Positions 3,344-6,211 of a stretch of 6,211 bases of DNA are shown piece by piece. The position numbers were made by a program, and so were the translations under genes. Origin of the DNA: a bacterium (GTDB lineage Bacteria; Blakebacterota; Blakebacteria; Blakebacterales; Blakebacteraceae). Location: assembly GCA_025774205.1 (NCBI GenBank), contig JALGWK010000212.1, forward strand, positions 1 through 6,211, in the 5' to 3' direction. Within the stretch, counting starts at the first letter, position 1. Each line of letters begins with the position of its first letter. A model generated the notes under the pieces. The model had not been told where the DNA came from and searched no databases. It saw only the letters and a program-made list of their open reading frames with translations.

Positions 3344-3958
3344 ATGCATATCGCCGACGGCATCATAGCCGCCGAGATCTGTGTCGCCGCTGACGCCGTC
3401 TCGGTGGGAGCGCTCTACGCCTTCGGGCGGCGGACCCGGCCTGAAGATGTTCCCCGAATGGGATTCGCCGCGACGGCGATCTTCGCCGCTTCACTCATCC
3501 ATTTCCCCCTGGCCGGGACATCGGTCCATCTCGGCCTGATCGGTATAGCGGGGATCCTGCTCGGGATCAGGTCCTTCCCCGTCATTTTCACCGCGCTCCT
3601 GTTCCAGTCGCTGATATTCCAGCACGGCGGGCTGATATCGGTCGGGCTGAACACGATCAATCTGGGCGCGGGTGCCCTGCTGGCATGGGGGATCTGGCGA
3701 TGGAGATCGATACCGGAACAACTCCGGGCCTTCTCGGCCGGGTTCTGCGGCATCCTGCTGCCGGCCCTGCTCATGGCCCTGGAGTTCGAGTTGACCGGAT
3801 ACGGCCGGGGCGCCTTCTACATCCTGTCGGTCTACGCGATCGTGGCCGCCCTCGAGGGGGGGCTCACGCTGACGATCGTGAGCTTCTTCCGGAAAGTGAA
3901 ACCGGAGCTGCTGGATTCAGAGATACTGGAAGCTGATGTATGGGAGGCAGAGGAATGA
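3344..3958 (+). CDS. cbiM: ECF nickel/cobalt transporter substrate-binding membrane subunit CbiM/NikM
   Basis: A 204-residue inner-membrane S component that captures the metal ion. It begins MHIADG, the family hallmark: the free N-terminus and His2 are metal ligands, so the start is fixed at this ATG. H62 in GTSVHLGLIG matches the conserved His that completes the site in NikM structures. Hydrophobic segments at about 12-26, 41-55, 62-82, 102-116, 130-146 and 156-180 match the multi-helix fold. The segment LLFQSLIFQHGGLISVGLNTINLG is the typical CbiM core. The acidic C-terminus ends in TGA that overlaps the next ATG (ATGA). nikR downstream and a NikL-like partner favour nickel over cobalt; this is inference, because CbiM and NikM are hard to separate by sequence. 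Confidence 0.95.
   Translation: MHIADGIIAAEICVAADAVSVGALYAFGRRTRPEDVPRMGFAATAIFAASLIHFPLAGTSVHLGLIGIAGILLGIRSFPVIFTALLFQSLIFQHGGLISVGLNTINLGAGALLAWGIWRWRSIPEQLRAFSAGFCGILLPALLMALEFELTGYGRGAFYILSVYAIVAALEGGLTLTIVSFFRKVKPELLDSEILEADVWEAEE
3943..3947 (+). promoter_or_regulatory. Ribosome binding site deciding the nikL-like start
   Basis: GGAGG lies seven bases before ATG 3955. An in-frame ATG at 3940 would place this motif inside the gene, so 3955, which overlaps the cbiM stop as ATGA, is the better start. Confidence 0.7.
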
Positions 3959-4458
3959 AGCATTGGTATGAAGCCGGCTTACCCGTGCTGCGCCTCCCGC
4001 CATTCCTTATTCTGCCCGCGCTGCTCCTCCCCCTCTTGCTCCTCTCCGGTTTCGCTCCCCACCACGGGATAGAGGTCGAGATCAAGTGGCATTCCCCCGC
4101 GCTCGTCGCGACCTGTACCTGGTCGGGAGGGGGCGGGGCGGTGGTCGGAGCGGCGGTAGAGGTCTATTCACCGGATGACGGGGATGAGCCGTACCAGAAG
4201 GGGGAGACCGACCGGAACGGGCGCTTCTCCTTCGTGCCGGAGTCGGCCGGGGAGTGGAACTTCATAGTAGATGACGGGATGGGGCACCGGGAGGAGACCA
4301 GGTACATCCTGCCACTCGATTTCCGGACCCTGGAGACGATCACCCCCGGTCCTGCCGGTGGGAGTGATCTGCGCTACGCGGGTCTGGCAGTCGTCGGGAT
4401 ACTGATCGTGGCGATAGCGATCGTGCTCATCAAACGCGCGTCACCGGCGGGTGGCTGA
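3955..4458 (+). CDS. nikL: NikL-like auxiliary subunit of the ECF nickel transporter
   Basis: 167 residues from the ATG that overlaps the cbiM stop by four bases. An N-terminal hydrophobic helix (about 16-34) and a C-terminal one (about 142-159) flank an extracytoplasmic beta-sandwich-like domain. Its segment from V63 through AAVEVYSP and ETDRNGRFSFVP to EWNFIVDDGMGHR resembles the carboxypeptidase regulatory-like domain of proteins encoded beside nickel-type CbiM genes. H36, H37, H46 and H111 lie on the outer side and could contact the metal (inference). In this position other systems carry CbiN/NikN, a two-helix protein with a short loop; this one has a larger folded loop, which fits NikL. 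The symbol rests on architecture and neighbours rather than a diagnostic motif. Confidence 0.7.
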   Translation: MKHWYEAGLPVLRLPPFLILPALLLPLLLLSGFAPHHGIEVEIKWHSPALVATCTWSGGGGAVVGAAVEVYSPDDGDEPYQKGETDRNGRFSFVPESAGEWNFIVDDGMGHREETRYILPLDFRTLETITPGPAGGSDLRYAGLAVVGILIVAIAIVLIKRASPAGG

Positions 4459-4461
4459 CCC

Positions 4462-5256
4462 GTGCAGCATGCCTTCCTCGACCGATACAGCGACCTCGAT
4501 TCACCGCTCCACCGGCTCGATCCACGGGTGAAACTCGTGGTCTTCACGGCGATCCTCCTCATGATGGTGTCGGTTCCACGGGATGAACCGCTCACCCTGC
4601 TCCTCTGCTACCCGGGCCTCGCCATCCTGCTGGCGCTCAGCCGGGTTCCCGTTTCGTACATCCTCAGACGCTGCCTGCTCGTAACCCCCTTCGTACTGAT
4701 GGCGGCCGGGGTGATGATGCTGACCGGTGAAACGAACGGGAGAGCGGTGGCGGGTACCGGCGCCGATCTCCGCTCCCTGGCAGCCCTGTCGATCGTGCTG
4801 AAGGCGTTTGCCGCCGTGATCGTGCTCTCTCTGCTGACCTCCACGGAGCGATTCCACCGGCTCCTGGAAGGTATGCGGGCCCTGGGGCTGCCGCCCCTCC
4901 TGGGAGTGCTCTCGGCGTACATGTACCGTTACGCTTTCATCCTCTCCGAAGAGGTGATGCGTACTTCCCGGGCCCGTCTCAGCCGGACACCGGGTCCTCT
5001 GCGGACGGGCAGGATCCGGACCTATGGCAATCAGGCGGCGATGATCTTCATCCGGAGCTGGGAACGCTCACAGACGGTATACAATGCCATGTGCTCACGG
5101 GGATTCACGGGAGAGTTCCCCCCCACAAGTGACCTTCGGTCAAGTGACCTGCGGTCAAGTGACCTTCGGTCCCGAAGAGGTGACCTTCGGTCAAGTGACC
5201 TGGTCTTCGCGCTCATCGTACCGGCGACCTTCCTGGCAGTGAGGTTGTGGGGATGA
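4462..5256 (+). CDS. cbiQ: ECF transporter transmembrane coupling subunit CbiQ/NikQ with internal SDLRS repeats
   Basis: The 264-residue T component linking CbiM to the ATPase. It starts at GTG three bases after the nikL-like stop; a weak GGTGG at 4450-4454 precedes it. The opening QHAFLDRYSDLDSPLHRLDPRVKL is the standard CbiQ start. Membrane segments lie near 27-41, 45-60, 66-86, 106-125 and 247-262. The coupling region includes RTSRARLSR and SQTVYNAMCSRGFTGE, where the usual Ala-Arg-Gly motif reads Ser212-Arg213-Gly214. Residues 223-244 are four near-identical copies of SDLRS interrupted by RRG, encoded by a 15-bp tandem repeat, just before the last helix. This stretch is not part of the conserved family core. 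The TGA overlaps the cbiO ATG by four bases. Confidence 0.92.
   Translation: MQHAFLDRYSDLDSPLHRLDPRVKLVVFTAILLMMVSVPRDEPLTLLLCYPGLAILLALSRVPVSYILRRCLLVTPFVLMAAGVMMLTGETNGRAVAGTGADLRSLAALSIVLKAFAAVIVLSLLTSTERFHRLLEGMRALGLPPLLGVLSAYMYRYAFILSEEVMRTSRARLSRTPGPLRTGRIRTYGNQAAMIFIRSWERSQTVYNAMCSRGFTGEFPPTSDLRSSDLRSSDLRSRRGDLRSSDLVFALIVPATFLAVRLWG
5128..5208 (+). repeat. In-frame 15-bp minisatellite within cbiQ
   Basis: Copies of AGTGACCTTCGGTCA: 5128-5142 (exact), 5143-5157 (one change), 5158-5172 (last base changed), a 6-base interruption CGAAGA (5173-5178), 5179-5193 (first base changed), and a partial copy beginning AGTGACCT at 5194. The unit is a multiple of three, so copy-number change would add or remove SDLRS without shifting the frame. 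CTTCGG-TC-CCGAAG (5164-5177) forms a small hairpin at the interruption. Confidence 0.9.
5239..5244 (+). promoter_or_regulatory. Ribosome binding site deciding the cbiO start
   Basis: GTGAGG ends eight bases before ATG 5253. It is too close to the alternative in-frame GTG at 5247, so the ATG overlapping the cbiQ stop is preferred. Confidence 0.5.
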
Positions 5257-5936
5257 ACACACCTGCGGTCTCCATACGCGATCTCTCCTTTGCCTACACC
5301 GGGCAGGAGCAGGTGCTCGATCACGTCGACCTGGAGATACAGCCGGGTGAGCGTTTCGGCATCATCGGACCCTCCGGGGCGGGGAAATCGACCCTGCTGC
5401 TCCATCTCAACGGGATCCTGCGCGGCCGGACGGGAAAGGTGGAGATCGGCGGAATCCCGGTCGGTGAAGAGTCACTCCCCGAGATCAGGCGAAGGGTCGG
5501 GCTTGTCTTCCAGAATCCCGACGACCAGTTGTTCAATCCCACCGTGGAGGAGGATGTCGCGTTCGGTCCGCTGAATATGGGTCTGAGCAGTGAAGAGACG
5601 GTCGGCCGTGTAGAGAAGGCGCTCGGGGCGATGAACCTGGAGGGTTTCGAGAAACTCTCCTCCCATCATCTGTCGCTGGGTGAGCGGAAACGGGTGGCGC
5701 TGGCCACCGTCCTGGCGATGCGACCTGATATCGTGGCCTTCGATGAACCGTTCTCGAACCTGAATCCGGCCATGGTCGAGCAGGTGATCGGGATCGTGTC
5801 CGGTCTGAAAGCTACCGTCATCATCGTATCGCAGTCGATCATTCCCGTTCTGGCCGTCTGTGATCGGATAGCGGTGCTCAATGAGGGAAGGATAGCGGCC
5901 GTGGGACCGGTTGACGTGATCGCGTCCACCGGTTGA
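5253..5936 (+). CDS. cbiO: ECF transporter ATPase CbiO/NikO, C-terminally truncated by a 22-bp duplication
   Basis: The cytoplasmic ATPase that powers the nickel transporter, 227 residues as it stands. Visible motifs are Walker A GPSGAGKST (39-47), Q-loop Q87 in VFQNPDDQLFNPTVEEDVAFGP, signature LSLGE (140-144) and Walker B IVAFDE (160-165, with D164 and E165 intact). The D-loop reads SNLN, with Asn171 replacing the usual Asp. The switch position, normally THD, reads S193-Q194-S195, so the histidine is missing. The frame ends at a TGA created inside the second copy of a perfect 22-bp tandem repeat (5906-5949). Removing one copy continues the protein to TGA 6067-6069 for 264 residues, with a tail containing [13 protein letters not shown]. 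Whether the short form works is unknown; the nucleotide-binding core is complete apart from the substitutions noted. Confidence 0.9.
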   Translation: MNTPAVSIRDLSFAYTGQEQVLDHVDLEIQPGERFGIIGPSGAGKSTLLLHLNGILRGRTGKVEIGGIPVGEESLPEIRRRVGLVFQNPDDQLFNPTVEEDVAFGPLNMGLSSEETVGRVEKALGAMNLEGFEKLSSHHLSLGERKRVALATVLAMRPDIVAFDEPFSNLNPAMVEQVIGIVSGLKATVIIVSQSIIPVLAVCDRIAVLNEGRIAAVGPVDVIASTG

Positions 5937-5949
5937 CGTGATCGCGTCC
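5906..5949 (+). repeat. Perfect 22-bp tandem duplication causing a frameshift in cbiO
   Basis: Two identical copies, 5906-5927 and 5928-5949, each starting ACCGGTTGACGTG and ending GCGTCC; one further base (5950) also matches. Twenty-two is not a multiple of three, so reading through the second copy puts TGA (5934-5936) in the cbiO frame. Confidence 0.95.
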
Positions 5950-6069
5950 AGCCGTGATCTCCTCCGGGAATGCGGACTCGACTTCCACTTCTACTGCGAA
6001 ATCTGCCGTGATCTGCTCCAGGACTCCGGCGCTGAACAACGAACAGGGGAGGGAATGGGCGATGTCTGA
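5937..6069 (+). pseudogene. cbiO: Disconnected cbiO 3' end (CxxC-containing tail)
   Basis: In the frame one step over from cbiO, this stretch is open from the second repeat copy to TGA 6067-6069. It encodes [10 protein letters not shown] then [17 protein letters not shown] and a short Gly/Glu-rich end. I recall similar RELL...GLDFHFYC-type ends in full-length CbiO proteins, which argues this is the displaced native tail. In the restored 264-residue protein Cys241 and Cys244 form a CxxC near His238 and Cys233, possibly metal-binding (inference). GTG at 5938 could restart translation, but no ribosome binding site precedes it. The stop overlaps nikR by eight bases, as expected if this was the original cbiO end. 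Confidence 0.8.
6048..6052 (+). promoter_or_regulatory. Ribosome binding site of nikR
   Basis: GGAGG within GGGGAGGG ends nine bases before ATG 6062. Because the cbiO frame now stops at 5936, ribosomes no longer translate through this site, which may alter coupling of nikR to cbiO. Confidence 0.65.
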
Positions 6070-6211
6070 CCTGGTCCGGTTCGGAGTTTCGATCGAGAAC
6101 GGACTGCTCGATGAATTCGACACGCTCATCACGGAGCGGGGTTATTCGAACCGCTCCGAGGCGATCAGGGATCTCATACGGGGATATACTGCCGAGCGGG
6201 AGTGGGAAGAG
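6062..6211 (+). CDS. nikR: Nickel-responsive regulator NikR, N-terminal part
   Basis: The first 50 residues before the window ends. The N-terminal strand [17 protein letters not shown] followed by two helices (LITERGY and [14 protein letters not shown]) is the ribbon-helix-helix DNA-binding domain. The [15 protein letters not shown] stretch is nearly diagnostic of NikR. The family's C-terminal ACT-like domain with the His and Cys nickel ligands lies outside the window and was not seen. NikR binds nickel as a tetramer and represses nickel uptake genes, which fits its place at the end of this operon and a candidate operator at 3295-3321. The start overlaps the ancestral cbiO stop by eight bases. 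Confidence 0.93.

Follow-up and report, generated by a model that had tools for sequence, protein, structure and literature searches.

Nickel/cobalt ECF transporters of the CbiMNQO and NikMLQO types are the closest described systems for the gene cluster analyzed here. The solved ECF ATPases are 265-300 aa long, and the CbiO protein of Rhodobacter is among the proteins with known structure (5x3x/5x41). The cluster carries a short tandem duplication, for which two published cases are relevant. In M. tuberculosis, promoter tandem repeats vary in copy number at 1e-2 to 1e-3 (PMC12817950). For metagenome assemblies made with IDBA-UD and CLC, Chen et al. 2020 (PMC7111523) describe joins at which overlapping flanks stand in duplicate; on assembly duplications of 22 or 47 bp, a literature search yielded nothing specific.

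The analyzed window of 6,211 bp is one complete contig within a draft genome (G000) of 527 contigs. On its forward strand, the gene of the substrate-specific component cbiM (3344-3958) is followed by a gene for a NikL-like subunit (3955-4458; NCBIfam NF058648, 45 bits, below the cut-off of 100), by cbiQ for the ECF T component (4462-5256; TIGR02454, over the cut-off) and, in the same operon, by a cbiO-like gene for the transporter ATPase (5253-5936), which as it stands encodes 227 aa with a complete ABC_tran domain. The 5' end of nikR (6062-6211) comes last, with 50 codons before the contig end; NikR of the congener G001 is 86% identical over these 50 residues, and a search for the remainder of nikR on the other contigs of G000 found none. 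The S, T and ATPase components are encoded together as CbiM, CbiQ and the ABC_tran protein, the NikL-like match being weak, and by its predicted gene content cbiM-nikL-cbiQ-cbiO-nikR is an ordinary nickel/cobalt ECF transporter operon. The presence of the NikR regulator suggests that the substrate of the predicted transporter is more likely nickel. The weak NikL-like match at 3955-4458 and the downstream nikR together also suggest a nickel transporter, and the cbi names may mislead.

The cbiQ gene contains a repeat of its own, an imperfect in-frame 15-bp tandem repeat at 5126-5201 that encodes SDLRS units and adds ~15 residues relative to CbiQ of the three family relatives G001, G002 and G003. 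Because it is in frame and diverged, this repeat looks real, unlike the 22-bp one in cbiO. Its core, GGTCAAGTGACC, comes close to a palindrome, and contig C506 of G000 has a related repeat of 16 bp.

In cbiO, the 22-bp unit ACCGGTTGACGTGATCGCGTCC occurs twice head-to-tail on the forward strand, with the first copy at 5906-5927 and an identical second copy at 5928-5949. Tandem Repeats Finder gives a period of 22 with 100% matches and no indels over 5906-5950, base 5950 being once more the first base of the unit (1 base of microhomology). The chance expectation for perfect 22-bp tandem pairs in the window is ~1e-9. The frame begun at the ATG at 5253 is terminated by the TGA at 5934-5936, inside the second copy, as a preliminary description of this DNA had stated. 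That description had also proposed that deletion of one copy yields a 264-residue CbiO overlapping nikR by 8 bases, and the one-copy reading gives exactly this layout, with the cbiO stop at 6067-6069, the nikR ATG at 6062 and the 8-base overlap ATGTCTGA. The encoded protein has 264 aa with one copy of the unit; with two, three or four, it ends after 227 aa. The displaced C-terminal tail occupies 5937-6069 of the forward strand, and a GTG at 5938, one base past the TGA, lies in frame with it and opens 43 codons that end in the nikR overlap. The repeat is 261 bp away from the contig end. The second copy (5928-5949) was probably inserted by assembly, for the reasons given below.

Comparison with related genomes supports the one-copy layout as ancestral. 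The CbiO orthologues of G001 and of two members of the same family, G003 and G002, are 79%, 71% and 70% identical to CbiO of G000, respectively. All three relatives have one copy at the ACCGGTTGACGTGATCGCGTCC site and a full-length CbiO tail, and the two-copy form is found in none of them. The 8-base overlap ATGTCTGA with nikR is identical in G001 and G003, while G002 has no nikR at this place. One-copy alleles, which the preliminary description had suggested looking for in related genomes, are thus what all three carry, in line with its view of the ancestral layout. Among 80 wider CbiO loci, none has a stop within 10 residues of the point matching residue 225, and all 80 run at least 11 residues beyond that point (median 19); the final part of the tail varies in length among relatives. 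CbiO proteins also ending near residue 227, which the same description had named as evidence against its reading, were seen neither in the three family relatives nor in the 80 wider loci. Since the relatives are one-copy with a full tail and none of the 80 stops as early, the two-copy form is either derived or false. A truncation of CbiO at residue 227 would likely lead to loss of function.

Other origins of the short frame were also considered. A natural C-terminal shortening of CbiO was rejected, as 80 of 80 wider relatives are longer and the solved ECF ATPases have 265-300 aa. A programmed or regulated frameshift in cbiO was likewise rejected, the relatives being devoid of the repeat.

A sample of G000 comprising 100 contigs or stretches (0.756 Mb, ~0.74 Mb of it readable, as G000 and G001 both include short contigs made up of N alone) was searched for perfect tandem repeats with a period of at least 15. 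Twenty such repeats were found, with periods of 22 (five cases), 47 (four), 25 (two), and 15, 16, 16, 17, 24, 28, 42, 42 and 66. In most of them, and in nearly all of those with periods of 22, 25 or 47, the unit stands exactly twice (2.0 copies) with 0-1 base of microhomology; 15 of the 20 are out of frame, and the sequences at the repeat sites are unrelated to each other. The two commonest lengths make up half of the simple two-copy cases (8/16; P = 0.00035 under a log-uniform null that was picked after the lengths had been seen). Provided that the sampled 24% is representative, the whole genome should contain ~45 perfect repeats with one of the lengths 22, 25 and 47 bp. An excess of perfect repeats near contig ends of G000 is only suggestive (KS P = 0.054).

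The reading frame separates the perfect repeats from older ones. For tandem pairs of G000 with a period of at least 18, 12 of 16 perfect pairs are out of frame versus 5 of 35 diverged ones (80-99% identical; Fisher P = 4e-5), the frame being kept in 4 and 30 pairs, respectively; real repeats of some age within genes have to keep it. As the perfect class is mostly out of frame and the diverged class mostly in frame, no selection has acted on the perfect class. Almost no diverged members of the 22/25/47 class were found in the G000 sample, and therefore such events never grow old. Perfect repeats with a period of 22, 25 or 47 are absent from 80 loci taken from other public genomes (0.59 Mb; P(0) = 2e-4 at the rate of G000), and the G001 sample (0.55 Mb) contains one. 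The G001 draft also has perfect out-of-frame repeats of 22, 65, 32, 17 and 29 bp (L177, L184, L193, L253, L255).

At many of the G000 repeats, a one-copy reading lengthens or joins frames, for instance from 595 to 940 residues for a TonB-dependent receptor and from 359 to 648 for YidC, whose gene (contig C515), the sole copy in G000, is split within the periplasmic domain by a 47-bp repeat. The single topA locus (contig C360) is read as two fragments matching columns 181-276 and 259-410 of Pfam Topoisom_bac; the overlap between these columns corresponds to 47 bp read twice, and topA of G001 forms one 780-aa frame. In the gene of pyruvate phosphate dikinase (PPDK; contig C10), 22 bp are duplicated where G001, with flanks ~92% identical, has the unit exactly once. 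A GspE-like ATPase, an ABC permease and an ABC exporter are also broken, as read from their sequences alone. In an S9 peptidase gene, duplications of 22 and 17 bp lie ~200 bp apart. Located at 4920-4963 and 5152-5185 of L214 (contig C503), they are both perfect and out of frame, and their sum of 39 restores the downstream frame. A perfect duplication of 47 bp (886-980 of L199, contig C515) is at the rsmG start or just upstream and contains the parS-type consensus TGTTTCACGTGAAACA.

We consider it highly probable that the second 22-bp copy in cbiO is an assembly error. The preliminary description had left a recent event, a reversible switch and an error side by side; error emerges as the likeliest because perfect duplications of the same lengths break many genes of G000, some of them essential. 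This reading is further supported by the recurrence of the lengths, by the absence of microhomology and the near absence of diverged members, by the single copy in three family relatives together with the lack of 22/25/47 repeats in 80 other public loci, and by the context, a 6.2-kb contig of a 527-contig assembly with the repeat 261 bp from its end. As expected of such errors, the copies are perfect, the sites are single-copy in relatives (for cbiO in all three, for PPDK in G001), and the repeats recur regardless of frame or essentiality. Two overlapping sequence pieces would have been joined with the overlap uncollapsed, leaving it twice in tandem; this join step is our proposal for the origin of the duplication, and the relation 22+25=47 suggests that the three values are related overlap lengths produced by partial trimming. 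The real gene in the organism would then have one copy and encode the complete CbiO/NikO ATPase of 264 residues, with its translation coupled to that of nikR. Against an assembly error count that a k-mer overlap of 22 would be unusual, that the cbiO copies abut directly, whereas Ns lie between them in the published scaffolding case, and that duplicated overlaps flanking N runs, a direct sign of join error, were not found in the G000 sample. Given the few perfect out-of-frame repeats of G001 (17, 22, 29, 32 and 65), some perfect repeats may be real.

If the duplication is instead a single recent 22-bp event in the sequenced population, CbiO would be truncated at 227 residues, with transport lowered or abolished. 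Perfect copies are expected from a very young event, the relatives are one-copy, the truncated protein keeps the whole ABC_tran domain, and G001 too has some perfect out-of-frame repeats. We nevertheless regard it as unlikely: the same lesion, with the same few lengths, is seen in topA and in the sole yidC, where real ones would be lethal or strongly counter-selected, and a preference for exactly 22 and 47 bp in the absence of microhomology is not expected of real slippage. The few discrete lengths at unrelated sequences are what a fixed-stagger cut would leave, and could point to a real, still active process of this uncultured lineage that makes blunt, microhomology-free tandem duplications of fixed length (22, 25, 47 bp) genome-wide, tolerated or reversed by the cells; staggered-cut footprints, element excision, or fill-in and end joining would be candidate sources, for example. 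Such a process is very improbable in view of the essential genes hit, the near absence of older, diverged copies and the lack of selection on frame, and 22+25=47 would fit overlap trimming better than enzymology.

We give even less credit to phase variation by reversible slippage, the switch of the preliminary description, in which the CbiO tail and the nikR coupling would be toggled. Copy number of tandem repeats can indeed vary within a population, but here two copies are present in one genome, the relatives are one-copy with no repeat at the site, and a search of the G000 bin for a one-copy cbiO allele elsewhere found none. Moreover, full-length CbiO requires exactly one copy, all of the two-, three- and four-copy forms ending at residue 227; the one-copy state holds no repeat, and therefore nothing is left to slip back. 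Phase-variable repeats are expected to be conserved in relatives and slippable in both states, neither of which applies here, and the same kind of lesion is found in topA and yidC. The loss or toggling of nikR coupling need not follow either, as translation of the tail could begin anew at the GTG at 5938; with a real duplication, such a restart could preserve some of the coupling to nikR.

With assembly error as the preferred reading, the 22-bp duplication in cbiO probably does not exist as biology, and this cbiO should not be described as encoding a transporter that is truncated or switchable. The value of the case is as a warning: a quick screen for perfect tandem repeats whose lengths recur reveals such false pseudogenes in draft genomes.

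Compared with the described systems, the repeat resembles phase-variable contingency loci such as the M. tuberculosis promoters (PMC12817950) in that copy number could alter gene output, and differs from them in that two copies occur in a single assembly with no variation observed, that the relatives have not conserved the repeat, and that essential genes carry lesions of a similar kind. With the local errors of metagenome assemblies (PMC7111523), it shares a short perfect duplicate from overlapping ends that breaks genes and is scattered over the assembly; there, Ns separate the copies, whereas here the copies abut and the lengths 22, 25 and 47 recur. The operon itself matches the CbiMNQO and NikMLQO transporters in combining CbiM, a NikL-like protein, CbiQ, CbiO and NikR, and the NBD of its CbiO aligns with residues 2-229 of the 280 of Rhodobacter CbiO (5x3x_A). 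It departs from them in the missing C-terminal tail of the annotated CbiO, and solely through the duplication.
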